A model generated the notes under the pieces. That model was not told the DNA's origin, did not search any database, and saw only the letters and a program-made list of their open reading frames with translations. A program made the position numbers and the translations under genes. DNA of 64,000 bases from Actinorugispora endophytica (GTDB lineage: Bacteria; Actinomycetota; Actinomycetes; Streptosporangiales; Streptosporangiaceae): positions 225,938-289,937 of the forward strand of contig NZ_SNYN01000001.1 in the NCBI RefSeq assembly GCF_004363075.1, in the 5' to 3' direction. Shown piece after piece: positions 5,594 to 56,476 of this stretch (positions are counted from its first letter, which is position 1; each line of letters begins with the position of its first letter).

Positions 5594-5761
5594 GGCGCGT
5601 CCTCTCTCCATGAGGAGTGCCGCGACCGCGGCCTCCAGTGTCGTTGTCTGCCCTTATGCGACTACCGGATGACTGCTCTGGTTCCGGGTTTTCCACAGGA
5701 AAATATGGAGAGATTTCCGGACTCCCCTCCGGCCGTGGGACGGAGTGTCCCCGCCAGGCGC

Positions 5762-5767
5762 TAGCGT
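5762..5767 (+). promoter_or_regulatory. Putative leaderless -10 box for radA
   Basis: TAGCGT followed by seven bases and then the ATG at 5775. This matches the spacing of actinobacterial -10 elements at leaderless genes, and no Shine-Dalgarno sequence is seen. No convincing -35 is visible. Confidence 0.45.
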
Positions 5768-5774
5768 GCGGGAT

Positions 5775-7133
5775 ATGGCGAAGGCTGCGAAGAGCTCGTT
5801 CCGGTGCACCGAGTGCGGGTGGACCACCCTGAAGTGGGTGGGCCGCTGCGGCGACTGCGGCGCGTGGGGCACCGTCGAGGAGGCCGGGGCGCCCGCGCCC
5901 GGCAGGGCCCTCGCGACCAGGGTCAGCGCGCCCGCGCTGCCCATCGCCGAGATCGACGTCGAGGCCGCGCAGGCCTCCCCCACCGGTCTGGACGAGCTGG
6001 ACCGGGTACTGGGCGGCGGCATCGTGCCCGGCGGGGTGCTGCTGCTCGCGGGCGAGCCCGGGGTGGGCAAGTCCACGCTGCTCCTGGAGGTCGCCGCGCT
6101 GTACGCGGACCTGGGCCCCGTGCTCTACATCACGGGCGAGGAGTCCGCCGGGCAGGTGCGGCTGCGCGCGGAGCGGCTCGGCGCGCTGGCTCCCAAGCTC
6201 TACCTCGCGGCCGAGAACTCGATCGGCGCCCTCGTCGCGCACGTGGACCAGATCGCGCCCCGGCTGCTGATCGTCGACTCGGTGCAGACCATGATGGCGC
6301 CCGAGGCGAGCGGCACGCCGGGCGGGACCACCCAGGTCCGCGAGGTCGCGGCCGCCCTCATCCAGCTCGCCAAGTCGCGCAACATCGCCACCGTCCTGGT
6401 CGGGCACGTCACCAAGGACGGCTCCATCGCGGGGCCGCGCGTCCTGGAGCACCTGGTCGACGTGGTGCTCCAGTTCGAGGGCGACCGGCACTCGCGGCTG
6501 CGCCTGCTGCGCGCGGTGAAGAACCGGTACGGCCCCACCGACGAGATCGGCTGCTTCGAACTCACCGACTCGGGCATCATCGGCCTGCCCGATCCGAGCG
6601 GGCTGTTCCTGACCCGCCGCAACGAGCCCGTCCCGGGCACCTGCGTCACCGTCACCCTGGAGGGCCGCCGTCCGCTGATCACCGAGGTGCAGGCGCTCGT
6701 GGCGCCCACCGCGCTGCCCCAGCCGCGCCGCGCCACCTCCGGCCTGGACTCGGCCCGCGTGGCGATGGTGATGGCGGTCCTGGAGAAGCGGGCGAACCTG
6801 CGGGTGGGCGCCTCCGACGTCTACGCCTCGACGGTCGGCGGGGTGCGTCTGGTCGAGCCCTCGGTGGACCTCGCGCTGGCCCTGGCGCTGGCCGGTTCGC
6901 ACACCGACCTCGCCCTGCCGAGCGGCATGATCGCCATCGGCGAGGTGGGCCTGGCCGGGGACGTCCGCGTCGTCAGCGGCATCCAGCGCCGCCTCCACGA
7001 GGCCCAGCGCCTGGGCTTCACCCGGGCGATCGTGCCCGCGAACACCGAGGAACCGGTCGAGGGCATCGAGACCGTCAGCGTCGAGGACCTGGGCGAAGCC
7101 CTGCGCACCGCCCTCCCGGAGCGGCGCCGCTAG
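5775..7133 (+). CDS. radA: DNA repair protein RadA (Sms)
   Basis: RecA-related ATPase that promotes branch migration in recombinational repair. The 452-residue product has all RadA hallmarks in order: an N-terminal C4 zinc finger (C11, C14, C25, C28), Walker A GEPGVGKS at 93-100, Walker B LLIVDSVQT, the RadA-specific KNRYG motif (usually KNRFG), and a C-terminal Lon-protease-like domain. The ATG at 5775 is preferred; TAGCGT ends seven bases earlier and there is no Shine-Dalgarno sequence, so the mRNA may be leaderless. In many actinomycetes disA follows radA; here the next gene is the convergent gatD, so disA is not linked. Confidence 0.97.
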   Translation: MAKAAKSSFRCTECGWTTLKWVGRCGDCGAWGTVEEAGAPAPGRALATRVSAPALPIAEIDVEAAQASPTGLDELDRVLGGGIVPGGVLLLAGEPGVGKSTLLLEVAALYADLGPVLYITGEESAGQVRLRAERLGALAPKLYLAAENSIGALVAHVDQIAPRLLIVDSVQTMMAPEASGTPGGTTQVREVAAALIQLAKSRNIATVLVGHVTKDGSIAGPRVLEHLVDVVLQFEGDRHSRLRLLRAVKNRYGPTDEIGCFELTDSGIIGLPDPSGLFLTRRNEPVPGTCVTVTLEGRRPLITEVQALVAPTALPQPRRATSGLDSARVAMVMAVLEKRANLRVGASDVYASTVGGVRLVEPSVDLALALALAGSHTDLALPSGMIAIGEVGLAGDVRVVSGIQRRLHEAQRLGFTRAIVPANTEEPVEGIETVSVEDLGEALRTALPERRR

Positions 7134-7157: not shown

Positions 7158-7227
7158 TCCTGTTGATCGTGGCCTTTCCGGGGTCTCAACCGCGGTTGAG
7201 ACCCCGGAAAGGCCACGATCAACAGGA
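7158..7227. repeat. 70-bp perfect palindrome, family member 1 (probable bidirectional terminator)
   Basis: The sequence is an exact palindrome of 70 bases centred on CCGCGG, lying between the convergent stops of radA and gatD. Its arm contains GATCGTGGCCTTTCC followed by GGGGTCTCAACCG. Related but non-identical inverted repeats occur at 16427, 22011, 26337, 55776 and, degenerate, at 28499. The position between convergent genes favours a terminator acting on both strands; a mobile REP-like element is the alternative. Confidence 0.85.
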
Positions 7228-7239
7228 AGGCCGGAGGCC

Positions 7240-7953
7240 CTAGCGGAGCGCGGCGGCCAGGCGCTCCTCGTGGAGGGTCTCCCCCCACGACGGCTGGAGC
7301 GGCGGGATCTGGCCCACCCGCCAGCGCAGCAGCAGGTCGGCGAGTGCCGGGTTGCGCGGCAGCGCCGGTCCGTGCAGGTAGGTGCCGAGGATCTGGCCCT
7401 GGTAGGCGCCCTCGGTGGCGTCGTCGTTGCCGATCCCCTTGACCGTGGTCGACAGGGGGCGGGCCGACGGGCCGATCGCGGTGCGTCCCTGGTGGTTCTC
7501 GAAGCCGGTGATCCGGCCGACGCCCAGCGCCGGGTCCACGTCCGCGACGATCTCCCCGACCGCCCTGGTCTGCCCCCGGTTGCTGCGCACGTCCAGGATG
7601 CCGACGCCGGGCAGCGGGTTGGCCGCGTCGTCGCCGTAGGTCTCGCCGATGATCTGGTACCCGGCGCAGACCGCGAAGACGGCCGCGCCGCGCTCGGCCG
7701 CGCGCTTGAGGCCGCCGTCCGCGCGCAGCCGCTCCGCCGCGAGGATCTGCGGGCGGTCCTCGCCCCCGCCCAGCAGGTAGACGTCGCCCTCCACCGGCAC
7801 CGCGTCGCTGGAGTGGACGTGCACGGTCTCGGTGGGGATGCCGCGCAGTTCGGCGCGTCGGCGCAGGATCAGCACGTTGCCCTGGTCGCCGTAGGTGCTC
7901 AGCAGGTCGGGGTAGATCCAGACGATCCGCAGCCTGCTGCTGGTGTCGCTCAT
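7240..7953 (-). CDS. gatD: Lipid II isoglutaminyl synthase, glutaminase subunit GatD
   Basis: Glutamine amidotransferase subunit that supplies ammonia to MurT for amidating D-Glu of the peptidoglycan stem to D-iso-Gln. The 237-residue product is a CobB/CobQ-like class I glutaminase: nucleophile Cys96 in AVCAGYQ and catalytic His194 in GTYLHGP. The start codon lies 13 bases after the murT stop with GGGAA in between, so the two subunits form one operon, murT first. Function is well established for this pair in Gram-positive bacteria; the motif and partner make the assignment firm. A long palindrome follows the stop. Confidence 0.95.
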   Translation of the reverse strand: MSDTSSRLRIVWIYPDLLSTYGDQGNVLILRRRAELRGIPTETVHVHSSDAVPVEGDVYLLGGGEDRPQILAAERLRADGGLKRAAERGAAVFAVCAGYQIIGETYGDDAANPLPGVGILDVRSNRGQTRAVGEIVADVDPALGVGRITGFENHQGRTAIGPSARPLSTTVKGIGNDDATEGAYQGQILGTYLHGPALPRNPALADLLLRWRVGQIPPLQPSWGETLHEERLAAALR

Positions 7954-15365: not shown

Positions 15366-16229
15366 GTGATTCGCATGAAACGGAGCTACAGCCCTACTGT
15401 CCGGCGACGTCGGATCTCTGCTCAACTACGGAAGTTCCGCAAGCAGGAGGGCCTATCGGCAGCGGCAGCAGGGGAGAAGCTGGGGTGGGCGCAACAGAAG
15501 GTCTCGAAGATCGAGAGCGGCGAGCAGAAGAGGATTCCACCAGCGGAGCTTGACGCGCTTCTTGACATCTACAAGGTCACAGACCCACAAGTTCGAGACG
15601 CCCTCCATGAGTGCGCACGGCTTGCGAAACAGCGTGGGTGGTGGACGAAGTACAAGGAGGCATTTCCCGGCGGCCTGCCAGACTTCGAGAGCGAAGCGTC
15701 GGTGATTCGGTCCTACGAGGCCCAAGTCATCCCAGGGTTACTGCAAACCCCTGACTATGCGGAAGCAGTGTTCCGCGCTTACAAGCTCCGCGAGGATGCG
15801 GAGATCAAACGACTGGTTGAAGCACGCATGGAGCGGCAGCACATTCTCAATCAGGTTGGCCCGCCTGACTTCACGGCTGTCATCGACGAGGCAGCACTGC
15901 ATCGACTGGTCGGGTCGGAGGAGGTGATGCGCATGCAGTTGCGCCACCTGACTCATATGGCGGCCCGGCACAACATCGACATCTATGTGCTGCCTTACAG
16001 AGCAGGCGCACATGCCGCAACCAGCGGAAGCTTCACGATCATGGACTTTCCGGACCCAATGGACACCAGTGTCGTTTACGTGGAAACCCCAACCTCTACC
16101 CTGTACCTCGAAGAGGACGAGGAAGTCCGGGAGTTCAACACCATGATCAGCCGTGCCCAGTCTGCGGCGCTGAGCCCCACCTTGTCCCTGAAACTTGTCG
16201 AAGAGACCATCACGTCCCTAGAAGAGTGA
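15366..16229 (+). CDS. WhiJ-type helix-turn-helix regulator (XRE HTH plus DUF5753)
   Basis: The 287-residue product has an N-terminal XRE helix-turn-helix (LRKFRKQEGLSAAAAGEKLGW then QQKVSKIESG) and a C-terminal DUF5753 ligand/partner domain (YEAQVIPGLLQTPDYAEA, VIDEAALHR, GSFTIMDFPD). This architecture is that of WhiJ and its many paralogues, which work with a DUF397 protein and an RsbW-like ATPase to control development or secondary metabolism. GTG at 15366 is used because GAAGGGAG lies five to six bases upstream; ATG at 15375 is too far. The gene is distinctly less GC-rich than its neighbours, with many A/T third positions, hinting at recent acquisition. Confidence 0.92.
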   Translation: MIRMKRSYSPTVRRRRISAQLRKFRKQEGLSAAAAGEKLGWAQQKVSKIESGEQKRIPPAELDALLDIYKVTDPQVRDALHECARLAKQRGWWTKYKEAFPGGLPDFESEASVIRSYEAQVIPGLLQTPDYAEAVFRAYKLREDAEIKRLVEARMERQHILNQVGPPDFTAVIDEAALHRLVGSEEVMRMQLRHLTHMAARHNIDIYVLPYRAGAHAATSGSFTIMDFPDPMDTSVVYVETPTSTLYLEEDEEVREFNTMISRAQSAALSPTLSLKLVEETITSLEE

Positions 16230-16426: not shown

Positions 16427-16515
16427 CCGGTGGGTTTCCGGCGATCTTGACGTTTTCGGGGTCTCAACCGCTTCCGAGACCCCGAAAAGGTCAAGATCAC
16501 CGGGAAACCACCGGG
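16427..16515. repeat. Long imperfect inverted repeat, family member 2
   Basis: Arms of about 39 bases flank a 10-base loop (16466-16475). The inner parts, CGTTTTCGGGGTCTC and GAGACCCCGAAAAGG, are almost perfectly paired; the outer parts carry a few mismatches. It lies between the convergent stops of the DUF397 gene and the DUF1416 gene and is probably a two-way terminator. Confidence 0.8.
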
Positions 16516-16595
16516 TGAACGCGAGAACGCCGGTGGCGACGGGGCTTTCCCCGTCGCCACCGGCGTTCAACCGCCGTGTAGGACCCTGTCCGTCG

Positions 16596-16898
16596 CTACG
16601 CCTGCACCTGGATGTCGATGACCTTGCCGACCTCGGCCGTCACCGCGAACTCGCCGGTGAAGCCCTTGGAGGCCAGCACCCGCACCTTCCAGTCGCCGTC
16701 GGCGGCGAAGAAGCGGAACGTGCCCTCGGGGCCGGTCACGACCTCGCCGACGAAGTCGTCGGACGCGCTCAGCAGACGCGCGTACGCGCTGGCGAGCGGC
16801 TGGCCGTCCCGGGTCACCGTGCCCTGGATGACCGCCTGGTTGCCGGCGTCGGCGTCGGCCAGTGCCACGCCTCCGACCGGAGCTCCGCAGGTGCTCAC
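16596..16898 (-). CDS. DUF1416 protein, rhodanese partner
   Basis: The 100-residue product begins MSTCGAPVGGVALADAD and has a transthyretin/CarboxypepD_reg-like beta-sandwich (IQGTVTRDGQPLASAYARLL, EGTFRFFAADGDWKVRVL). DUF1416 genes follow the thiosulfate sulfurtransferase gene throughout actinomycetes. The GTG start overlaps the sulfurtransferase stop by four bases (GTGA), so the two are coupled. The conserved N-terminal Cys could accept sulfur from the rhodanese (inference). Biochemical role is not established to my knowledge. Confidence 0.9.
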   Translation of the reverse strand: MSTCGAPVGGVALADADAGNQAVIQGTVTRDGQPLASAYARLLSASDDFVGEVVTGPEGTFRFFAADGDWKVRVLASKGFTGEFAVTAEVGKVIDIQVQA

Positions 16899-17734
16899 TT
16901 GGCCTCCCCCAGCTCCACCGGAACGCCGATCAGCGACCCGTACTCGGTCCAGGAACCGTCGTAGTTCTTCACGCTCGGGATGTCGAGGAGCTCGTGCAGC
17001 GCGAACCACGCGATGGACGAGCGCTCGCCGATGCGGCAGTAGGCGATGATCTCCTTGTCGAGGTCCACGCCCGCGTCCGTGTAGAGCTCCTTGAGCTCGT
17101 CCTCGGACTTGAAGGTGCCGTCCTCGTTGGCGACCTTGGCCCACGGGATGTTGCGCGCGGTGGGGATGTGGCCGGGCACCTGGGAGACCTCCTGCGGCAG
17201 GTGCGCGGGGGCCAGCAGCTTGCCGGTGAACTCGTCGGGCGAGCGCACGTCGACCAGGTCCTTGGTGCCGATCGCGGCGACGACCTCGTCGCGGAAGGCC
17301 CGGATCGAGTTGTCCTGCTCCTTGGCGGTGTAGGTGGTCCGCTCGCGCTGCGGGACCTCCTCGACCAGCTCGCGGGAGTCCAGCTCCCACTTCTTGCGGC
17401 CGCCGTCGAGCAGGCGCACGTTCTCGTGGCCGTAGAGCTTGAAGTACCAGTAGGCGTAGGCCGCGAACCAGTTGTTGTTGCCGCCGTACAGCACGACGGT
17501 GTCGTCGTTGGCGATCCCGCGCTCGGACAGCAGCTTCTCGAAGCCGGCCTTGTCGACGAAGTCGCGGCGGACCGGGTCCTGGAGGTCCTTCTTCCAGTCG
17601 ACCTTGACCGCGTTGCGGATGTGGCCCTTGTCGTAGGCCGAGGCGTCCTCGTCGACCTCGACGATGACGACACCCTCGTCGCCCAGGTGGGCCTCGACCC
17701 AGTCAGCGTCCACCAGGACGTCGGAGCGGCTCAT
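16895..17734 (-). CDS. Thiosulfate sulfurtransferase (rhodanese), CysA/SseA type
   Basis: Two-domain rhodanese of 279 residues that transfers sulfane sulfur from thiosulfate or mercaptopyruvate to acceptors. The inactive N-terminal domain ends near YGGNNNWFAAYAYW; the active C-terminal domain has the loop CRIGERSS with nucleophile Cys233. AAAAAGGAGG lies a few bases before the ATG. A cysteine-bearing leader peptide gene lies 365 bases upstream on the same strand, which suggests regulation by cysteine or charged tRNA-Cys levels. Mycobacterial relatives are called CysA2/SseA; I leave the symbol empty because the names are used inconsistently. Confidence 0.94.
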   Translation of the reverse strand: MSRSDVLVDADWVEAHLGDEGVVIVEVDEDASAYDKGHIRNAVKVDWKKDLQDPVRRDFVDKAGFEKLLSERGIANDDTVVLYGGNNNWFAAYAYWYFKLYGHENVRLLDGGRKKWELDSRELVEEVPQRERTTYTAKEQDNSIRAFRDEVVAAIGTKDLVDVRSPDEFTGKLLAPAHLPQEVSQVPGHIPTARNIPWAKVANEDGTFKSEDELKELYTDAGVDLDKEIIAYCRIGERSSIAWFALHELLDIPSVKNYDGSWTEYGSLIGVPVELGEAK

Positions 17735-21114: not shown

Positions 21115-21996
21115 ATGTGGGGCCATCTCCGAGACCGTGACCACGGCCGCGCCGCGCTCGCCGGAGAGGCGTCCGCCGCCGCGGCCGAAGCCCTCCTTCG
21201 TTCGGAAGGCGCGCCCGAACACCCCGGACGCACCAGAAGCGCCGCCTTCTTCGACGTGGACAACACCCTCATGCGGGGCGCGTCGATCTACCACTTCGCC
21301 CGCGGCCTGGCCGCGCGCGACCTGTTCACCACGCGCGACCTGCTCCGCTTCGGCTGGGGCCAGATGATCTTCCGGATCAGCGGCACCGAGCAGCCCGACC
21401 ACATCAACGCCGCGCGCGAGGCCGCCCTGGCGTTCGTGGCCGGGCACAAGGTCGACGACCTGGTCACACTGTGCGAGGAGATCTACGACGACTCCATGGC
21501 CTCCCGCATCTGGGAGGGCGCGCGCGTCCTGGTGCAGCGGCACCTCAACGCCGGGCAGCGGGTCTGGCTGGTCACCGCGACACCCGTGGAACTCGCCGAC
21601 ATCATCAAGCGCCGCCTGGGCCTGAGCGGGGCGCTGGGCACGGTCGCCGAGTCGGTGGACGGCGTGTACACGGGCCGCCTGGTGGGCGACCTGCTGCACG
21701 GCCCCGCCAAGGCCCAGGCGGTGCGCGCGCTCGCCAAGCTGGAGGACCTCGACCTGTCCGCCTGCACGGCCTACAGCGACTCCTACAACGACCTCCCGCT
21801 GCTGTCCGCCGTGGGGCACCCCAACGCGGTCAACCCGGACGACGACCTCCAGGGGTACGCGGCCGCGCACGGCTGGCCCGTGCACGACTTCCGCAGGCAC
21901 CGCAGAGCCCTCACCGTGGGCCTCCCCGCCGCCGTCGCGGGCGCGGTGGCGGGCGGCGTGGCGGTCGGGGTCCTCCGCAGGCGCAGACGGTTCTAG
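21115..21996 (+). CDS. HAD-IB family phosphatase, SerB-like
   Basis: The 293-residue product has HAD motif I as FFDVDNTLMRG, motif II in WLVTATPVEL, and motif III/IV in AYSDSYNDLPLL, with a helical cap of the IB subclass. It resembles SerB1-type phosphatases of actinobacteria (phosphoserine phosphatase-like), but other phosphomonoester substrates are possible. The C-terminal 30 residues include a hydrophobic, Gly/Ala/Val-rich helix followed by RRRRR, possibly a membrane anchor. It converges with the acyltransferase gene across a long inverted repeat. A homologue of this gene lies close to the acyltransferase and SDR homologues in mycobacteria, as I recall. Confidence 0.9.
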   Translation: MWGHLRDRDHGRAALAGEASAAAAEALLRSEGAPEHPGRTRSAAFFDVDNTLMRGASIYHFARGLAARDLFTTRDLLRFGWGQMIFRISGTEQPDHINAAREAALAFVAGHKVDDLVTLCEEIYDDSMASRIWEGARVLVQRHLNAGQRVWLVTATPVELADIIKRRLGLSGALGTVAESVDGVYTGRLVGDLLHGPAKAQAVRALAKLEDLDLSACTAYSDSYNDLPLLSAVGHPNAVNPDDDLQGYAAAHGWPVHDFRRHRRALTVGLPAAVAGAVAGGVAVGVLRRRRRF

Positions 21997-22010: not shown

Positions 22011-22088
22011 CTCCCCCGCTGGTCGTGACCTTCTCGGGGGCTCGGATGCGGTCGAGACCTCGAGAAGGTCACGACCAGCGGGGGGGAG
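22011..22088. repeat. Long inverted repeat, family member 3
   Basis: Arms of about 30 bases beginning CCCCCGCTGGTCGTGACC pair with GGTCACGACCAGCGGGGG around a short loop. It lies between the convergent stops of the HAD phosphatase and acyltransferase genes. The CTTCTCG core pairs with CGAGAAG, replacing the TTTTCGG/CCGAAAA pairs of other copies, so base pairing is kept despite sequence change. Confidence 0.8.
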
Positions 22089-22103: not shown

Positions 22104-23066
22104 CTAGAACGGGTCTCCGCGTTCGACCACCAACCGGTCCAGTGTCCGCTGGACGATCTCGCGCACCTCGTCTCCCACCTCGAAGACCACGCCCGGGTCG
22201 TCGGCCGCCTCGGGCTCGTGGCGGTCGGTGCCGACGGGGGCGCCGAACTCGATGATCCACCTCGTGGGCAGCGGGAGCAGGCCGACCGGGCCGAAGAGGG
22301 GGAAGCCCGGGGTGACCGGGAAGTACGGGAGCTTCAGCAGCCGGGCCAGGGCCTTCAGGTCCGCGATCTTGGGGTAGATCTCCTCCGCGCCGACGATGGC
22401 GCACGGGATGATCGGCGATCGGGTGCGCACGGCCGTGGAGACGTAGCCTCCGCGTCCGAACCTCTGGAGGCGGTAGCGCTCGCTGAACGGTTTCCCCAGG
22501 CCCTTGTAGCCCTCGGGGAACACCCCCACCAGCTCGCCCCTGCCCAGCAGCCGCTCCGCGTCCTCCGAGGCGGCCAGGGTGTACCCCGCTTTGCGGGCGA
22601 GGTGGGACAGCACCGGGGTCTCGAACACCAGGTCGGCCGCCAGGGTCCGGAGCCTGCGCGCGGCCCGGTGGTGGTCGCGCAGCGCCACCTGGAGCATGAG
22701 CGCGTCGAAGGGCAGCACGCCCGAGTGGTTCGACACCAGGAGGGCGCGACCGGTGTCCGGGACGTTCGAGAGGCCGCGCAGCTCGATCCGGAACCAGTAC
22801 TCGTACCAGAGCCGCATCAGCGGTATGAGGACGTTCCCGGTGAGCTCGTCGTCGTAGCCGAAGTCGTCCACCTGGTAGTCGCCGTCGAGCCTCCGCTCGC
22901 AGAACTCCAGGAACCCGGCGAAGGACCCCGAACGGGCGTCCCGCCGGGTCCCGGCGTCCTCCGACCCCGCCGGCGACCCGCCCCGCCGGTCCCGGGGGAC
23001 CAGCGGCAGCACCGGGGCCAGTCCGCGCTCCTCCTCCACCGGGCGGACCGCGTCATCGCCGGGCAT
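22104..23066 (-). CDS. PlsC-like acyltransferase
   Basis: Membrane-associated glycerolipid acyltransferase of the LPLAT superfamily. The product (320 residues from ATG 23066) has the block I motif SNHSGVLPFDALM, block III GVFPEGYKGLGKPF, and a later IIPCAIVGAEE motif. In this actinobacterial subgroup the His-Asp spacing is longer than the usual HxxxxD. The start is uncertain: ATG 23126 has no ribosome-binding site, TTG 23072 has GAGGAG eight bases upstream, and ATG 23066 lies just after. It is downstream of the SDR gene in the same orientation, an arrangement kept in mycobacteria. Acyl acceptor unknown. Confidence 0.85.
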   Translation of the reverse strand: MPGDDAVRPVEEERGLAPVLPLVPRDRRGGSPAGSEDAGTRRDARSGSFAGFLEFCERRLDGDYQVDDFGYDDELTGNVLIPLMRLWYEYWFRIELRGLSNVPDTGRALLVSNHSGVLPFDALMLQVALRDHHRAARRLRTLAADLVFETPVLSHLARKAGYTLAASEDAERLLGRGELVGVFPEGYKGLGKPFSERYRLQRFGRGGYVSTAVRTRSPIIPCAIVGAEEIYPKIADLKALARLLKLPYFPVTPGFPLFGPVGLLPLPTRWIIEFGAPVGTDRHEPEAADDPGVVFEVGDEVREIVQRTLDRLVVERGDPF

Positions 23067-23162
23067 CGTCAAGGCGCCCACTCCTCTCCCCCGGTCCGGC
23101 GGGCGGCCGGACAGTGGAACCGTCATTATTTCGTGACAGTGCCGGAAAAGGGAAAACAGCGG

Positions 23163-25289: not shown

Positions 25290-26243
25290 CTACTTCGCGC
25301 CGTCGGGCTGGTGGGAGGGGACGAGAACCTGTCCCGCTCCCTCCCCCACCGTATCGACCGCTCCGCGCAGCGCCGTCACCATGGCCTGCACAGCGGGCCG
25401 GCGCCCGGCCTCGGCGCGCCACACCACGTAGATGTGCCGCACCAGGCGCGGCCGGACCGGAATGGTGACCACGCCCGGTTCCAGGAGGCCGCGGCCGAGC
25501 CGGGGCAGGACCGCCACCCCGATCCCCGCGGCGACCAGGGCCAGCTGGGTCGGGTACTCCAGCGAGAAGTGCGCGATCCTGGGTTCGACACCGCCGTTGC
25601 GCAGCGTGTGGCAGAGCCAGGCGTGGCAGATGTCGCCGGGCGGGGCGCCCACCCAGGTGTCCTCGGCCAGGTCGGTGAAGGCCAGCGAGCTCCGCCCGGC
25701 CAGCGGGTGCGAGGACGGCACCGCGACCTCGGCCGGGTCGTCCAGCAGGTGGAGCTTCTCCAGACCCTCGGGGAAGGGCAGCGGCGAGTTCTGCCAGTCC
25801 TGGACGACGGCGAGGTCGAAGTCGCCGCGCAGGACCTGCGGGAGCGCGACCTTGGGGTCGCACTCGTGCAGTTCCGCGGTGAGCTGGGGATGGACGGCGG
25901 CGATGTCGCGCAGCACGTGCGGCATGATGCCGCGCGCGGCGGTGGCGAAGGCGGCGACCTTGATCTTGCCCACGACGCTGCCGCGCTGCGCCTCCAGGTC
26001 CGCCTCCGCCTCGGCGACGAGGCTGAGGATGCGCTCGGCATGGCCGACCAGCAGCAGCGCGGCGTCCGTGAGCCGGACCCCGCGCCCGCTGCGCTCCAGG
26101 AGCCGGGAGGAGGTCTCCCGCTCCAGCTTGGCGATCTGCTGGGAGACCGCGGACGTGGTGATCCCCAGGACTTCGGCGGCCGCGCTCACCGAGCCGTACT
26201 CGGCGATCGCGTTGAGCGCCCTTAATCGATCGAGGTCGAGCAT
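25290..26243 (-). CDS. LysR family transcriptional regulator
   Basis: The 317-residue product has the N-terminal LysR winged helix (LDRLRALNAIAEYGSVSAAAEVLGI then TTSAVSQQIAKLERE) and a periplasmic-binding-protein-like effector domain (VGKIKVAAFATAARGIMPHVL onward). Effector and targets are unknown. It lies upstream of the histidine phosphatase gene on the same strand and may control it or itself. Upstream, past a 93-base gap, is one copy of the long inverted-repeat family that follows hemL. The start region is AT-richer (AAAGATCTCTTTAACAG), a plausible promoter/operator. Confidence 0.93.
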   Translation of the reverse strand: MLDLDRLRALNAIAEYGSVSAAAEVLGITTSAVSQQIAKLERETSSRLLERSGRGVRLTDAALLLVGHAERILSLVAEAEADLEAQRGSVVGKIKVAAFATAARGIMPHVLRDIAAVHPQLTAELHECDPKVALPQVLRGDFDLAVVQDWQNSPLPFPEGLEKLHLLDDPAEVAVPSSHPLAGRSSLAFTDLAEDTWVGAPPGDICHAWLCHTLRNGGVEPRIAHFSLEYPTQLALVAAGIGVAVLPRLGRGLLEPGVVTIPVRPRLVRHIYVVWRAEAGRRPAVQAMVTALRGAVDTVGEGAGQVLVPSHQPDGAK

Positions 26244-26336
26244 TGCACCATCGTAAAGATCTCTTTAACAGTGGGCCAGAGAAATGGGTAGCCCGACTGA
26301 CCAGCGACAGAAAAGTTACCTCGCGGACAGGGCCGT

Positions 26337-26400
26337 CGGTGATCTTGACCTTTTCGGGGTCTCAGAGACGGTTGAGACCCCGAAAAGGTCAAGATCACCG
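26337..26400. repeat. Long inverted repeat, family member 4 (perfect 28-bp stem)
   Basis: Positions 26337-26364 and 26373-26400 are exact reverse complements around an 8-base loop (GAGACGGT). The stem contains GATCTTGACCTTTTCGGGG. It follows the leftward hemL stop and precedes the LysR start on the same strand, so it is the only copy not between convergent genes. It probably terminates hemL transcription from the left and could block antisense reading from the other side. Confidence 0.85.
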
Positions 26401-26454
26401 GGAGGAACGGACATCGTGGGCGCGGCCCCGACCCTCACCCGCGCCGGAGACTCC

Positions 26455-27747
26455 CTAGCCCGCCCGCGCCGCGGCCTTCGCGGCGGCGGGAAGGGCGGAG
26501 ACGACCCGGTCCAGGGCGGCGTCGTCGTGCGCGGCGGAGAAGAACCACGCCTCGAACGCCGCCGGCGGCAGGTAGACGCCCTGCTCCAGCATCGCGTTGA
26601 AGAACGCCGCGAACCGGGCGGTGTCCTGGGCGCGGGCGCCGTCGAAGTCGGTGACCTCCGCGTCGGTGAAGAACACCGTGAACAGGCTGCCGCCGTGCTG
26701 GACGCGGTGCGGCACTCCGGCGGCGGCCAGCTCCTCGGACACGGCCGCCGAGACGCGCGCGGCGGCGCTGTCGATGCGCGCGTACACCTCGGGGGTCGCG
26801 TTGCGCAGCGTGGCCAGGCCCGCGGCGGTGGCCAGCGGGTTCCCCGACAGCGTGCCCGCCTGGTAGACCGGGCCGCCGGGGCTGAGCTGGTCCATGATGT
26901 CGGCGCGGCCGCCGAACGCGGCGGCGGGCAGGCCGCCTCCCATGACCTTGCCGAAGGTCATGAGGTCGGGGGTGACGCCCTCCAGTCCGAACCAGCCGGA
27001 CGGACCGACCCGGAAGCCGGTGAGGACCTCGTCCAGGACGAGCAGCGCGCCGTACCGGGCGGTGATCTCCTTCAGCCTGGCGTTGAAGCCGTTCCGGGGC
27101 GGCACGACGCCCATGTTGGCGGGGCACGCCTCGGCGATGACGCAGGCGATCTCGTCGCCGGCCCCGGCGAAGGCCGCCTCGACCGCGGCGATGTCGTTGT
27201 AGGGCAGCACGATGGTGTCGGCCGCGCTCGCGCCGGTGACACCGGGAGTGTCGGGCAGTCCGAAGGTGGCGACGCCGGACCCCGCCGCGGCCAGCAGCGC
27301 GTCCACGTGGCCGTGGTAGTTGCCCGCGAACTTGACCACCTTGGCGCGGCCGGTGGCCCCGCGGGCCAGCCGGATCGCGGACATGGTCGCCTCCGTGCCG
27401 GAGTTGACCAGGCGGACCTTCTCGACCGGCGCGCGGGCGGTGATCTCCTCGGCGAGCTCGACCTCCCCGGGGGTCGGCGCGCCGTAGGAGGTGCCCTTGG
27501 CGGCGGCCTCGGTCAGCGCCTCGACGACCGCGGGGTGCGCGTGCCCCAGGATCAGCGGCCCCCACGAGCAGATGAGGTCCACGTAGGTGTTCCCGTCGAC
27601 GTCGGTGAGGTAGGCCCCCTTGCCCGACGCCATGAACGGCGGCGTCCCCCCGACGGCCCCGAAGGCCCGGACCGGTGAGTTCACTCCGCCGGGAACCTTG
27701 GCGGAAGCGCGTTCGAACAGCTCGCGTGATGTCTGATGAGTACCCAC
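26455..27747 (-). CDS. hemL: Glutamate-1-semialdehyde 2,1-aminomutase
   Basis: PLP enzyme that converts glutamate-1-semialdehyde into 5-aminolevulinate, the second step of the C5 tetrapyrrole pathway begun by hemA of this window. The 430-residue product has [16 protein letters not shown], the PLP phosphate site [10 protein letters not shown], the Asp of [10 protein letters not shown], and catalytic Lys267 in TFGKVMGGG. Length matches the family. The GTG at 27747 is preceded by CACACT ending six bases upstream, with no ribosome-binding site, so the message may be leaderless. It is transcribed separately from hemABCD, divergently from rraA. Confidence 0.97.
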
Positions 27748-27858: not shown

Positions 27859-28359
27859 ATGTCCGACGCGTCCGAGGTGTTCGCCACCGCCGACCTGATC
27901 GACGCCCACGGCGACTCGATCGCGAGCTGCGAGACGCAGTTCCGCCAGTTCGGCGCCCGCGCCGCCTTCCACGGGCCGATCCGGACCGTCAAGTGCCACG
28001 AGGACAACGCGCTGGTCCGGGAGCTGCTCAACCAGCCGGGGGAGGGGCGCGTCCTGGTCGTGGACGGCGGCGGCTCGCTGCGCTCGGCCCTGATGGGCGA
28101 CATGATCGCCGGGTCCGCCGCGGCCAACGGCTGGTCCGGGGTGGTGATCAACGGCGCGGTGCGCGACGTGGCGGAGCTGGCCGGGCTGGCGCTGGGGGTC
28201 AAGGCCCTCGGCTCCAACCCGCGCAAGTCCGCCAAGGCCGGCGCGGGCGTGGTCGACGAGCCGGTGGCCTTCGGCCAGGTGGTGTTCACCCCGGGCGCGT
28301 GGCTGTACAGCGACGCGGACGGCATCGTGGTGGCCGGGAGGGAGCTTCCCAGGCCCTGA
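27859..28359 (+). CDS. rraA: RraA family protein (HMG aldolase / RNase E inhibitor fold)
   Basis: The 166-residue product matches Rra[30 protein letters not shown], the acid cluster [19 protein letters not shown], and [32 protein letters not shown] with the G-x-R-D motif of the metal-dependent 4-hydroxy-4-methyl-2-oxoglutarate aldolase class. In E. coli RraA binds RNase E; in actinobacteria the role could be either aldolase or RNase inhibition. GGGAGGAG stands just before the ATG and TAGCTT further upstream may be the -10. It is a single gene between hemL and a PrimPol-like gene. Confidence 0.92.
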
Positions 28360-28498: not shown

Positions 28499-28562
28499 CC
28501 GATGATCGTGGGCTTTCTGCCCGCTTCGGGGCCCGGAAGGGGCGGAAAGTCCGTGATCGCCA
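28499..28562. repeat. Degenerate long inverted repeat, family member 5
   Basis: GATGATCGTGGGCTTTC pairs imperfectly with GAAAGTCCGTGATCGCC around an altered centre (TCGGGGCCCGGAAG). It has the same position as the other copies, between the convergent rraA and PrimPol-like genes. Several mismatches and a lost GGGTCTC core suggest decay of an older copy. The rest of 28360-28632 holds nothing recognisable. Confidence 0.6.
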
Positions 28563-28632: not shown

Positions 28633-29304
28633 CTACCCCGCCTTCGGCTCCTCGCACACGTCGACCAGGACGGCCAGGACGGCGATCGGGTCCGGGAGTT
28701 CGACGCCGTCCGCTCCCCGGGACGGCGGGCGGATCCAGTCCACCCGGCCGCCCGAGGGCAGCGTCGACGGCGGGGCCGGGACGTAGCTGTTGCGGCAGTG
28801 CCAGCGCAGGCCGGGGCTGTCCGCCACCGTCTCGGGAACGCAGTCGAGGTGGCAGGACCACCACTCGTCCTCGTCCGCCGGGGAGCGGGTGGCGACGAAG
28901 AAGAGGTAGCGCCGCGCGTCCACGGCGGCGACGGGGCCGGCGGGCAGGCCCGCCCTGTCCATCTGGGCCATGGCCGACACCCCGGCCTCCGCGGGGACGT
29001 CGAAGACGTCGAAGACGCGCCCGGTCGGCAGGATGACGTTCGCGTCGGGTTCGGCGCCCCACCAGCGGGTGATGACGGCGGGGTCGGTTCCGGCCTCCAT
29101 CGCCCAGGCCGCGGACATCGGGTGCGCGCCCGGGTCCGGGCAGCCCATGCGGTCGCAGGCGCACGAGCGCGGCCCCACCGGGTCGGGGTGGGCGCCCCGG
29201 CACACCGGCCAGCCGAGCGCGGCGTACTCCAGCGCGGCGTCGACCATCCCGACCGGGTTCCGGCGGCGCCGCCGCCTGCTCCTACCACTCAATACGTCGA
29301 CCAT
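28633..29304 (-). CDS. PrimPol-type (bifunctional primase/polymerase N-terminal domain) protein
   Basis: The 223-residue product resembles the stand-alone prim-pol domain proteins of actinomycetes: DAALEYAALGWPVCRGAHP, a Cys-rich segment (CACDRMGCPDPGAHP) that could bind zinc, ITRWWGAEPDANVILPTGR, and VFDVPAEAG. The catalytic Asp/Glu of true prim-pols are not obvious, and helicase or C-terminal primase domains are absent. Related proteins occur near housekeeping genes rather than in plasmids, so this may be a chromosomal regulator or nucleotide-binding protein. The first ~19 residues (SRRRRRRN) may be a late start; an in-frame ATG lies at residue 20. Confidence 0.75.
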   Translation of the reverse strand: MVDVLSGRSRRRRRRNPVGMVDAALEYAALGWPVCRGAHPDPVGPRSCACDRMGCPDPGAHPMSAAWAMEAGTDPAVITRWWGAEPDANVILPTGRVFDVFDVPAEAGVSAMAQMDRAGLPAGPVAAVDARRYLFFVATRSPADEDEWWSCHLDCVPETVADSPGLRWHCRNSYVPAPPSTLPSGGRVDWIRPPSRGADGVELPDPIAVLAVLVDVCEEPKAG

Positions 29305-55512: not shown

Positions 55513-55770
55513 GTGAGTCTCTACAACGAACGGATCGACGTCCGATCGACCAACGGAGGGCACCCCGCCCTGTTCTCCTGGCGCGGCGCGGTGTACCGGG
55601 TGCGGCGCGTCATCGGCACCTGGGACGGCGGCGGCCCCGCCTCCCCCGGAACCACCGGGGTCCGGCTGGTCCGGGTCGCGGCAGAGTCCGAGCAGGGCCG
55701 GTCCAACATCGCCGACATCACCTTGGACACCGCGACGAACGACTGGACGATACGCCGCCTCTGGGACTGA
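55513..55770 (+). CDS. Small conserved protein (DUF6504-like)
   Basis: The 85-residue product MSLYNERIDVRSTNGGHPAL continues with LFSWRGAVYRVRRVIGTWDGG and ends in DWTIRRLWD. The FxWRGxxYxVxxVxxxW pattern is that of the DUF6504 family in actinobacteria. Beta-rich fold; no known catalytic residue. It is transcribed alone, and a long inverted repeat follows. Family assignment is tentative. Confidence 0.7.
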   Translation: MSLYNERIDVRSTNGGHPALFSWRGAVYRVRRVIGTWDGGGPASPGTTGVRLVRVAAESEQGRSNIADITLDTATNDWTIRRLWD

Positions 55771-55775
55771 CCCCT

Positions 55776-55843
55776 CCCGCCGGTCCCGCCCTCTCCGGGG
55801 TCTCGACCGCCCTCGAGACCCCGGAGAGGGCGAGACCGGCGGG
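55776..55843. repeat. Long inverted repeat, family member 6
   Basis: 31-base arms (55776-55806 and 55813-55843) with one mismatch flank a 6-base loop. The stem includes CTCTCCGGGGTCTCGA and TCGAGACCCCGGAGAG. It lies between the convergent DUF6504-like and YigZ genes. Confidence 0.85.
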
Positions 55844-55849
55844 AAAACG

Positions 55850-56476
55850 CTAGGGCGCGATCTCGACCTCGACGGTCATGTCGTCCTGCTCCTCGCACAC
55901 GGCCCGGCCTCCGGTGAGCTCGGCGACCCAGGCCCCGAACTCCGCCGGGGCGAGCCCGTCCAGTGCCACGTCCACCTGGACGTCGGCCTCGTAGCGCACG
56001 TCCAGGACCCGGTGGCGCGAGTCCCGCAGGTCGCTCTCCAGCCGTCCGGCCCACTGGTAGTCGGCGAGCACCGTGACCACCGGCAGCGAGCGCCGCTCCA
56101 GCAGCCCGACCTCGTCGACCGCGGCCGCCACCGCGTTGCCGTAGGCCCGGATCAGTCCGCCCGCCCCGAGCTTGATCCCGCCGAAGTAGCGGGTCACCAC
56201 CGCGACGGTGTCCGTGATCCCGCGGTGCCGGAGGACCTCGAGCATCGGCACCCCGGCCGTCCCCGAGGGCTCCCCGTCGTCGCTGGAGCGCTGCACCCGG
56301 CCGTCCCCGCCCAGCACGTAGGCGGTGCAGTTGTGGGTGGCGTTCCAGTGCAGCCTGCGCCGCTCGGCGATGAACGCGCGCGCCGCGTCCTCGTCCGTCA
56401 CCCGCGCGAGCGCGCAGAGGAACCGGGACTTCCTGATGTCGAGCTCGTGCTCGCCGTCGCGTCTGATCGTTCTCAT
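55850..56476 (-). CDS. YigZ/IMPACT family protein
   Basis: The 208-residue product has the UPF0029 (Impact) N-terminal domain with the signature RSSDDGEPSGTAGVPML and VVTRYFGGIKLGAGGLIRAYG, and a C-terminal DUF1949-like domain (SLPVVTVLADYQWAGRLESDL). Related proteins bind ribosome-associated factors or nucleic acids; the bacterial role is unclear. ATG at 56476 begins MRTIRRDGEHELDIRKSRF, in line with homologues. It converges on the DUF6504-like gene. Confidence 0.93.
   Translation of the reverse strand: MRTIRRDGEHELDIRKSRFLCALARVTDEDAARAFIAERRRLHWNATHNCTAYVLGGDGRVQRSSDDGEPSGTAGVPMLEVLRHRGITDTVAVVTRYFGGIKLGAGGLIRAYGNAVAAAVDEVGLLERRSLPVVTVLADYQWAGRLESDLRDSRHRVLDVRYEADVQVDVALDGLAPAEFGAWVAELTGGRAVCEEQDDMTVEVEIAP

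Follow-up and report, generated by a model that had tools for sequence, protein, structure and literature searches.

A repetitive extragenic palindrome family with long stems, positioned behind genes in Actinorugispora endophytica

Repeated palindromes and U-poor transcript ends in bacteria

The best-known small mobile palindromes of bacteria are the REP elements, for which RAYT is the proposed mover. According to the available part of one account (PMC3733652), REP elements form high-copy, extragenic, lineage-specific palindrome families with complementary stem changes between subfamilies, and they lie mostly downstream of genes, between unidirectional or convergent genes. Their stems measure 5-13 bp in the GTAG type and 8-9 bp in the CGTC type, and CGTC REPs have no known transposase (PMC3733652). 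Long hairpins behind genes are also found at the transcript ends of Streptomyces. In the accessible portion of PMC8780764, the 3' ends of S. avermitilis are palindromic and GC-rich and as a rule lack a poly-U tail, roughly one in four being U-rich, and the U-lacking ends are weaker, with folding energies like those of random intergenic positions. Streptomyces terminators are reported to have the longest hairpins, with covariation, and the A-tracts of two-way terminators to be virtually absent there (PMC12207403, available text); many Streptomyces ends may be due to Rho-dependent termination or to RNA processing, as far as the available parts of both papers go (PMC8780764, PMC12207403). Here we describe a palindrome comparable with REP elements but much longer, which has multiplied in a host where no Y1 transposase was detected, in a phylum whose reported 3' ends often lack U-tracts (PMC8780764, in part).

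Structure, copy number and pairing of the hairpins

We analysed a window of 64,000 nt, by which we mean the whole stretch C1:225938-289937 of the 5.25-Mb, 44-contig host genome (72% GC), with gene positions from a home-made caller, trained on the host and used for the other genomes below as well. A sequence-only reading had listed six palindromes in it, sharing a core of the form GATCnTGACCTTTTCGG followed by GGTCTC. Five of the six do form one family, here family A, but the sixth, at 28499, belongs to a sibling class without the core; moreover, the core with GGTCTC is exact only at 26337 and on the 3' arm of 16427, the copies at 7158, 22011 and 55776 having 2 to 5 changes per arm. The copy at 7158-7227, to which no strand is assigned, is identical to its reverse complement throughout its 70 bases, the exact palindrome that had been claimed, and stands between a gene with AAA_25, Zn_ribbon_LapB and Lon_C domains (5745-7133, plus strand), which we take to be RadA-like, and a CobB/CobQ-type amidotransferase gene (7240-7953, minus strand). 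At 16427-16515 (plus) the hairpin has an extended foot (GGTTTCC/GGAAACC) and separates an HTH_31/DUF5753 gene (15366-16229, plus) from a DUF1416 gene (16596-17390, minus); an adjoining, unrelated hairpin with a perfect 20-bp stem occupies 16525-16568 in the same convergent gap. The copy at 22011-22088 (minus) lies between a HAD hydrolase gene (21115-21996, plus) and an acyltransferase gene (22104-23126, minus). That at 26337-26400 (minus), which follows a class-III aminotransferase gene (26455-27747, minus) in a tandem gap, is the commonest exact type, with at least eight identical 64-nt places among 40 candidates scored. The fifth copy, at 55776-55843 (plus), lies between a weak ORF (55513-55770, plus; an 85-aa prediction) and a UPF0029 gene (55850-56476, minus) and is the most diverged of the five, with 46 of 66 consensus matches. 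The sibling hairpin at 28499-28562 (no strand assigned), between an RraA-like gene (27859-28359, plus) and a predicted gene (28633-29247, minus), was put in class D (inner stem GGGCTTTCTGCCCG) by reading it against class D hairpins and is absent from that class list itself. The earlier placing of five of the six between convergent genes agrees with the predicted genes, the tandem gap at 26337 being the exception.

The five longest inverted-repeat arms in the window (28-40 nt, in a scan for arms of at least 20 nt at most 40 nt apart) are those of the five family A copies, whose MFE runs from -55 to -72 kcal/mol with folding z-scores of -10 to -16. The hairpin at 28499 falls outside the longest-arm list, yet its predicted fold is a hairpin (-39 kcal/mol, z -4). 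With up to two mismatches, TTTCGGGGTCTC occurs 14 times in the window, compared with a mean of 6.2 and a maximum of 13 in shuffles. Membership of an Rfam family was rejected, since the whole window gave no match above gathering score; five matches at 26200-26500 were far below gathering, and four of them were microRNA hairpins.

How large is the family? A palindrome scan without sequence guidance covered 1.095 Mb (C1 1-915000 and C4 1-180000) and returned 54 palindromes on C1 and 14 on C4 with a net arm length of at least 22. The core motif with up to four changes, a loose rule that lets in a few outliers, labelled 49 of these 68 as family A. A consensus scan (at least 40 of 66 matches) found 59 copies in the same 1.095 Mb, which extrapolates to about 280 in the genome. 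In a covariance-model search of the whole genome, all 150 candidates scored, out of 10,985 at first look, fell below E 1e-9, and they represent at least 147 distinct places, three places being matched on both strands. There are therefore many copies beyond the six first listed. The unit is a 66-nt hairpin with a 28-bp stem, a 10-nt loop and occasionally a longer foot, and each position of the loop's ACCG is conserved in at least 90% of the 51 aligned copies.

The alignment of these 51 copies (A1) has no gaps and takes in all of the 59 except 56417, 62490, 401708 and five copies that repeat others exactly or nearly so. In its stem 97.0% of cells are paired, against 89.1% in shuffles and 33-54% in slid controls; double changes occur at 16 of the 28 pairs, with 116 doubly changed cells against 37 in shuffles, although some double changes mark subfamilies, so that not all are separate events and the events may be few. 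The earlier observation that the arms stay complementary as the sequence drifts therefore extends from a handful of copies to 51. Mismatched pairs among 55 copies, omitting four hits in which fewer than 20 of the 28 pairs are in register (C1 56417, 62490, 401708 and 517389), comprise 27 G-T, 25 A-C and 13 others in 1540 cells, and on the transcribed strand of tandem copies 4 GU, 10 AC and 5 others. As G-T is not preferred over A-C, the pairing is kept but nothing marks it as kept in the form of RNA. The sequence-only reading had proposed selection on a hairpin, and this stands as far as the preserved pairing goes; the selection itself does not follow from it, because the same pairing would result if template switching within the palindrome corrected one arm from the other, or if palindromic master copies were copied, with no selection on structure. 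We lean against this account of the pairing, which is compatible with the other readings below, but consider it a substantial possibility. The 55 copies carry 307 stem differences from the majority sequence and only 65 mismatched pairs, and both the near equality of G-T and A-C and the subfamily-marking double changes fit it as well. However, mismatches accumulate with the divergence of copies (Spearman 0.59), so any arm correction is incomplete.

Position behind genes, gain in the host lineage and sibling hairpins

Like REP elements, family A reaches a high copy number in extragenic DNA: all 59 copies in the 1.095 Mb fall outside predicted genes, although genes cover about 80% of the sequence. 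Thirty-five copies are in convergent gaps, 20 in tandem gaps and four in divergent gaps. The convergent count compares with a mean of 9.9 and a maximum of 22 in 2000 runs of random intergenic insertion, so the enrichment between convergent genes that the sequence-only reading implied is real, and family A is present in 35 of 176 convergent gaps. Fifty-five copies have a gene 3' end as a neighbour; the median distance to the nearest one is 19 nt, and 45 of the 55 are within 50 nt of it (null 9.4, maximum 20). Of the tandem copies, 18 of 20 are nearer the 3' end. Near-consensus copies are convergent in 5 of 13 cases and diverged copies in 30 of 46 (Fisher p 0.11), and as the convergent share of near-consensus copies is not significantly lower, retention at convergent sites is not supported. 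Regular chromosomal spacing and strand bias were rejected, since spacing on C1 fits an exponential (KS p 0.43) and the strands hold 24 copies each. The longest stretch of the examined part of C1 without family A is about 98 kb (C1:638557-736699), and the overall spacing is still random-like.

Are these hairpins terminators? A stable GC-rich hairpin close behind a stop codon is what a canonical terminator has, and the position fits the bidirectional terminator that had been suggested. However, a U-tract (at least five T in 12 nt) follows on none of the 118 sides of family A copies, where T averages 0.57 and purines 8.6 in 12 nt, and a canonical intrinsic (Rho-independent) terminator was rejected on this ground; nor does the pairing bear an RNA signature, and several relatives lack a strong hairpin at the same gaps, which suggests that the hairpin was not needed there ancestrally. 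The host's other convergent gaps resemble those with family A in this respect: in those of up to 400 nt without it, the stem score reaches 10 or higher in 62 of 125, and five or more T in 12 nt occur on 3 of the 124 sides of these 62. Since Streptomyces 3' ends are reported to lie at stable U-poor hairpins, a two-way end without U residues is plausible for family A, and from its position and structure we infer that the hairpin is probably such an end.

A quick tree of the RadA-like protein places the host, the one genome of its genus in the comparison set, in the Nocardiopsidaceae, in one clade with Thermobifida fusca, G053, G085 and G023. The core pattern has no exact match in 84,980 species genomes, a collection from which the host and very near records may be absent. 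Comparison with G053 covered 360 kb, with 158 reciprocal best hits (median identity 79%) and 105 shared adjacent gene pairs. Eight gene pairs that hold family A in the host, two of them (56417 and 62490) with poorly paired copies, are conserved in G053, and family A is present there at none of the eight; an unrelated hairpin with a stem score of 11-17 occupies three of the counterpart gaps, and in the other five no stem score exceeds 8. Gap lengths in G053 and the host are, for example, 8 versus 88 nt and 31 versus 402 nt. At three of the eight host sites (62490, 74428 and 207277) the flanks are repeated elsewhere in the genome, which suggests that a larger mosaic was gained there. Palindromes with a net arm of at least 22 number 2 in 360 kb of G053 (5.6 per Mb), compared with 59 per Mb on C1 of the host.

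Other gaps tell the same way. The DUF6542 gap measures 4-17 nt, with a best stem score of 4-8, in the four of 20 relatives that have a similar neighbour by C-terminal sequence, compared with 88 nt and 30 in the host. The DUF4245 gene is present in 43 of 61 genomes, and its locus was read in 29 relatives. Thirteen of these keep a small facing gene, presumably xseB, within 160 nt, and the best stem scores of their gaps are 3-6 versus 27 in the host; a fourteenth keeps the facing gene at 859 nt and is not among the folded gaps. Downstream of the radA-like gene, whatever the neighbour, the best palindrome has a net stem of 7-14 (16 of 80 named loci), and covariance model R1, run on 37 of the 80, gave only two short, weak matches. 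Family A copies were gained in the host lineage, the distance between the host and G053 leaving loss in G053 possible site by site. Empty sites in relatives, as at the eight G053 gaps and the DUF6542 and DUF4245 gaps, are a feature of transposable elements. No target-site duplication was recognised by eye in the flanks, and the relatives are too diverged to place junctions.

Family A also belongs to a wider group in the class Actinomycetia, in which a foot stem of about CCGnTGATCnTGAC, the size and the gene-end position are kept while the inner stem differs between lineages. The covariance model matches 8 of 150 genomes of the family at E 1e-8 or better, host included, with at most 34 candidates scored per genome and rough R1 E-values. 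Two genomes of genus g9 (G101 and G072) have hairpin families of their own, in which most members measure 66 nt, the inner stems differ and the feet read, for example, CCGnTGATCTTGAC or GCGTTGATCTCGGC; G008, also of g9, has no covariance-model match. Sibling loci within the host's own family are convergent in 15, tandem in 12 and divergent in 4 of 31 cases, some lying hundreds of nt from gene ends, and the DUF6542 gap of G075 and G021, which has a different neighbour gene, holds their own sibling hairpins (TTGATCTCGGnGATATC).

A class-wide search with the foot pattern and a free spacer of 30-46, which fixes foot identity by construction, matched 12 of 394 genomes, and the backward pattern had no match among those listed. 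The host has 101 matches, three genomes of family f14 have 18 (G201), 16 (G252) and 13 (G262), G085 of the Thermobifida clade has 7, and seven others have 1-2, which may be chance (G055, G162, G182, G256, G279, G345 and G475); two matches in low-count genomes (L195 and L196) are inside predicted genes. Among the places listed, the first five each in G201, G252, G262 and G085, each genome mostly keeps to a single inner stem, and the hairpins measure 57-58 nt in total where 50-66 was allowed. Gene context was read for 22 sibling copies in six genomes, a set without one G262 place and those of G055, G182, G256, G279 and G475: 10 are convergent, 11 tandem and one divergent, none is inside a predicted gene, and the 21 with a gene 3' end lie at a median of 8 nt from it. 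The G085 copy that was checked pairs poorly in register in its inner part (7 of 26). Flanking genes of sibling loci map to few family A sites. No exact foot-pattern match was found in viral contigs, and the consensus had no plasmid match, so that these searches gave no hint of carriage by phages or plasmids.

The host itself has 22 further hairpins with the same foot and a different inner stem. At C1:401708, C1:592847 and C1:766193, a hairpin with the shared foot stands behind each of three paralogous gene 3' ends, whose flanks are 88-93% identical. Two of these hairpins belong to family A, and the third differs in its inner stem; a fourth such flank is in L068:17184. Outside the window, at C1:305840-306105 (L026), a class D hairpin lies within a MITE-like interspersed repeat of about 260 bp, whose ends look inverted by eye (GGAACCTYCGGCGCGGGGGTG); the repeat has 97 BLAST pieces, many partial, in the DNA examined and shares flanks with some family A copies.

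Candidate explanations and comparison with known systems

On balance, we think it probable that family A is a REP-like, non-autonomous palindromic repeat that has recently multiplied, that lands behind stop codons and that likely forms a two-way transcript end without a U-tract. Its spread as a repeat is well supported. An enzyme acting in trans would recognise the foot stem and move the element; it is presumably not a Y1 transposase, because none was found in the host and seven other carriers. Copies would land a few to a few tens of nt behind stop codons, best between convergent genes, where the hairpin would end or protect transcripts from one or both sides without a U-tract, as may the host's other convergent-gap hairpins. 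Copies would be held at gene ends because a strong hairpin stops or trims transcripts arriving from either side. Against this reading, five of the eight G053 gaps and the 13 DUF4245 gaps manage without a strong hairpin, G-T mismatches are not favoured over A-C, and sibling loci in the host's own family are placed less regularly. The weaker U-lacking ends of S. avermitilis and the near absence of A-tracts in Streptomyces also count partly against a two-way end. If it is right, the many copies and their empty counterparts offer a natural, repeated comparison by which to judge if a hairpin alone can terminate transcripts in GC-rich bacteria, and they point to a further mobilising enzyme that could be traced by the foot motif.

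A broader version of this reading involves SbcCD, which removes long palindromes in E. coli (available part of PMC3733652). SbcD (TIGR00619) scores above cut-off in G053, G101 and G021, has only partial, sub-cut-off matches in the host and G085, and has none in G201 and G252. The best host match is an Mre11-like phosphoesterase adjoining an AAA_27 protein without SbcC or SbcD features (C5:246000-256500, L305), whereas in G053, with some ten times fewer long palindromes per Mb, SbcD- and SbcC-like proteins are adjacent (C1:552000-562000, L307). Judging from a genome-wide search for SbcD, with SbcC assessed from the neighbours at those loci, the palindrome-rich host appears to lack the canonical SbcCD nuclease. 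The link between SbcCD and palindromes is loose, since G101 and G021 have both SbcD and hairpins. It is conceivable, though we regard it as doubtful, that Actinomycetia harbour a superfamily of self-spreading two-way transcript ends, in which a non-RAYT enzyme reads the foot CCGnTGATCnTGAC and inserts right behind stops, inner stems are lineage-specific, and bursts occur in lineages without SbcCD.

The plainest rival, unlikely in our judgement but one to be taken seriously, holds that family A consists of purely selfish palindromic repeats with no gene-end role, persisting behind stops through least harm or insertion preference. Such repeats would account for the many relatives that manage without a strong hairpin at the same gaps, for an orientation that is random, with 9 tandem-gap copies in the direction of the genes and 11 against it and with 24 copies each way along C1, and for mismatches without an RNA-type bias. 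They fit less well with the divergent gaps, which have the longest median length (254 nt without the element) yet hold only 4 of the 59 copies, with the crowding of copies near stops even in long tandem gaps, and with the unrelated U-less hairpins at the same position in other convergent gaps and in three of the eight G053 counterparts.

Could the copies instead be ordinary bidirectional terminators kept by descent and alike through function only? Stable hairpins between convergent genes are what this would predict, but it is an improbable account of at least eight identical 64-nt places, of a core without a match elsewhere and of hairpins that lack a U-tract, and the empty sites contradict it: G053 shares none of the eight, and the orthologous DUF4245 and DUF6542 gaps lack the element. 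Distinctly improbable, too, is a role as binding sites for a protein, whether chromosome-organising or another DNA-binding one, that recognises the inverted TGATCnTGAC foot. The foot stem is kept across genera while the inner stem changes, the class-wide search being itself conditioned on the foot, and the pairing shows no RNA bias; however, random spacing on C1 without strand bias, the scarcity of long palindromes in G053 and a gene-end position that is unneeded for such a role all argue against it.

That the copies are true REP/BIME elements moved by RAYT, a Y1 tyrosine transposase, is highly improbable despite their copy number, lineage-specific families and extragenic position downstream of genes (as in the available part of PMC3733652), because no Y1 match was found in the host, the tags occur at chance level and the 28-bp stem is far beyond 5-13 bp; membership was rejected on these three grounds. 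The Y1 transposase profile (PF01797) has no match in 8 of 10 carriers (the host G000, G085, G101, G072, G201, G252, G262 and G345) or in G053, and it matches in carriers G021 and G075; of 14 named genomes, the profile control matched 5. Within 12 nt of an end, GTAG and CTAC occur in one copy each of the 59 (2.2 and 2.5 expected by chance), and CGTC and GACG in 11 and 7 (10.3 expected for each). The REP-like spread suggested by the sequence-only reading survives in the lineage-specific gain and the empty sites, and not in a GTAG or CGTC tag, a short stem or a RAYT-type transposase.

Our literature search, which reached few subscription journals and no preprints, found no description of this repeat, and the matches listed for the foot sequence were unrelated by title; the available part of the RepRanger study (PMC12306157) gives counts for three Actinomycetota genomes, none of them for this family. 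Among described systems, the U-poor hairpin ends of Streptomyces are alike in being long, stable hairpins behind genes with few or no Us and with covariation, but in the accessible text they are not described as one repeated sequence (PMC8780764, PMC12207403), whereas family A recurs in 35 of 176 convergent gaps and is missing from G053. Enterobacterial MITEs and RU elements resemble it as short, interspersed inverted-repeat structures (PMC2229807 and PMC2759123, in part), but family A is almost all stem, and no resident transposon with matching ends was identified and no target duplication recognised by eye. Compared with REP elements, whose stems are shorter, family A has a 28-bp stem, no foot tag and no Y1 transposase in the host, and its foot stem is common to families of Actinomycetia. 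It is nevertheless like them in copy number, in extragenic position behind genes and in forming lineage-specific families with complementary stem changes, and although not a REP proper and not found described, it is a variant of the repetitive extragenic palindrome kind.
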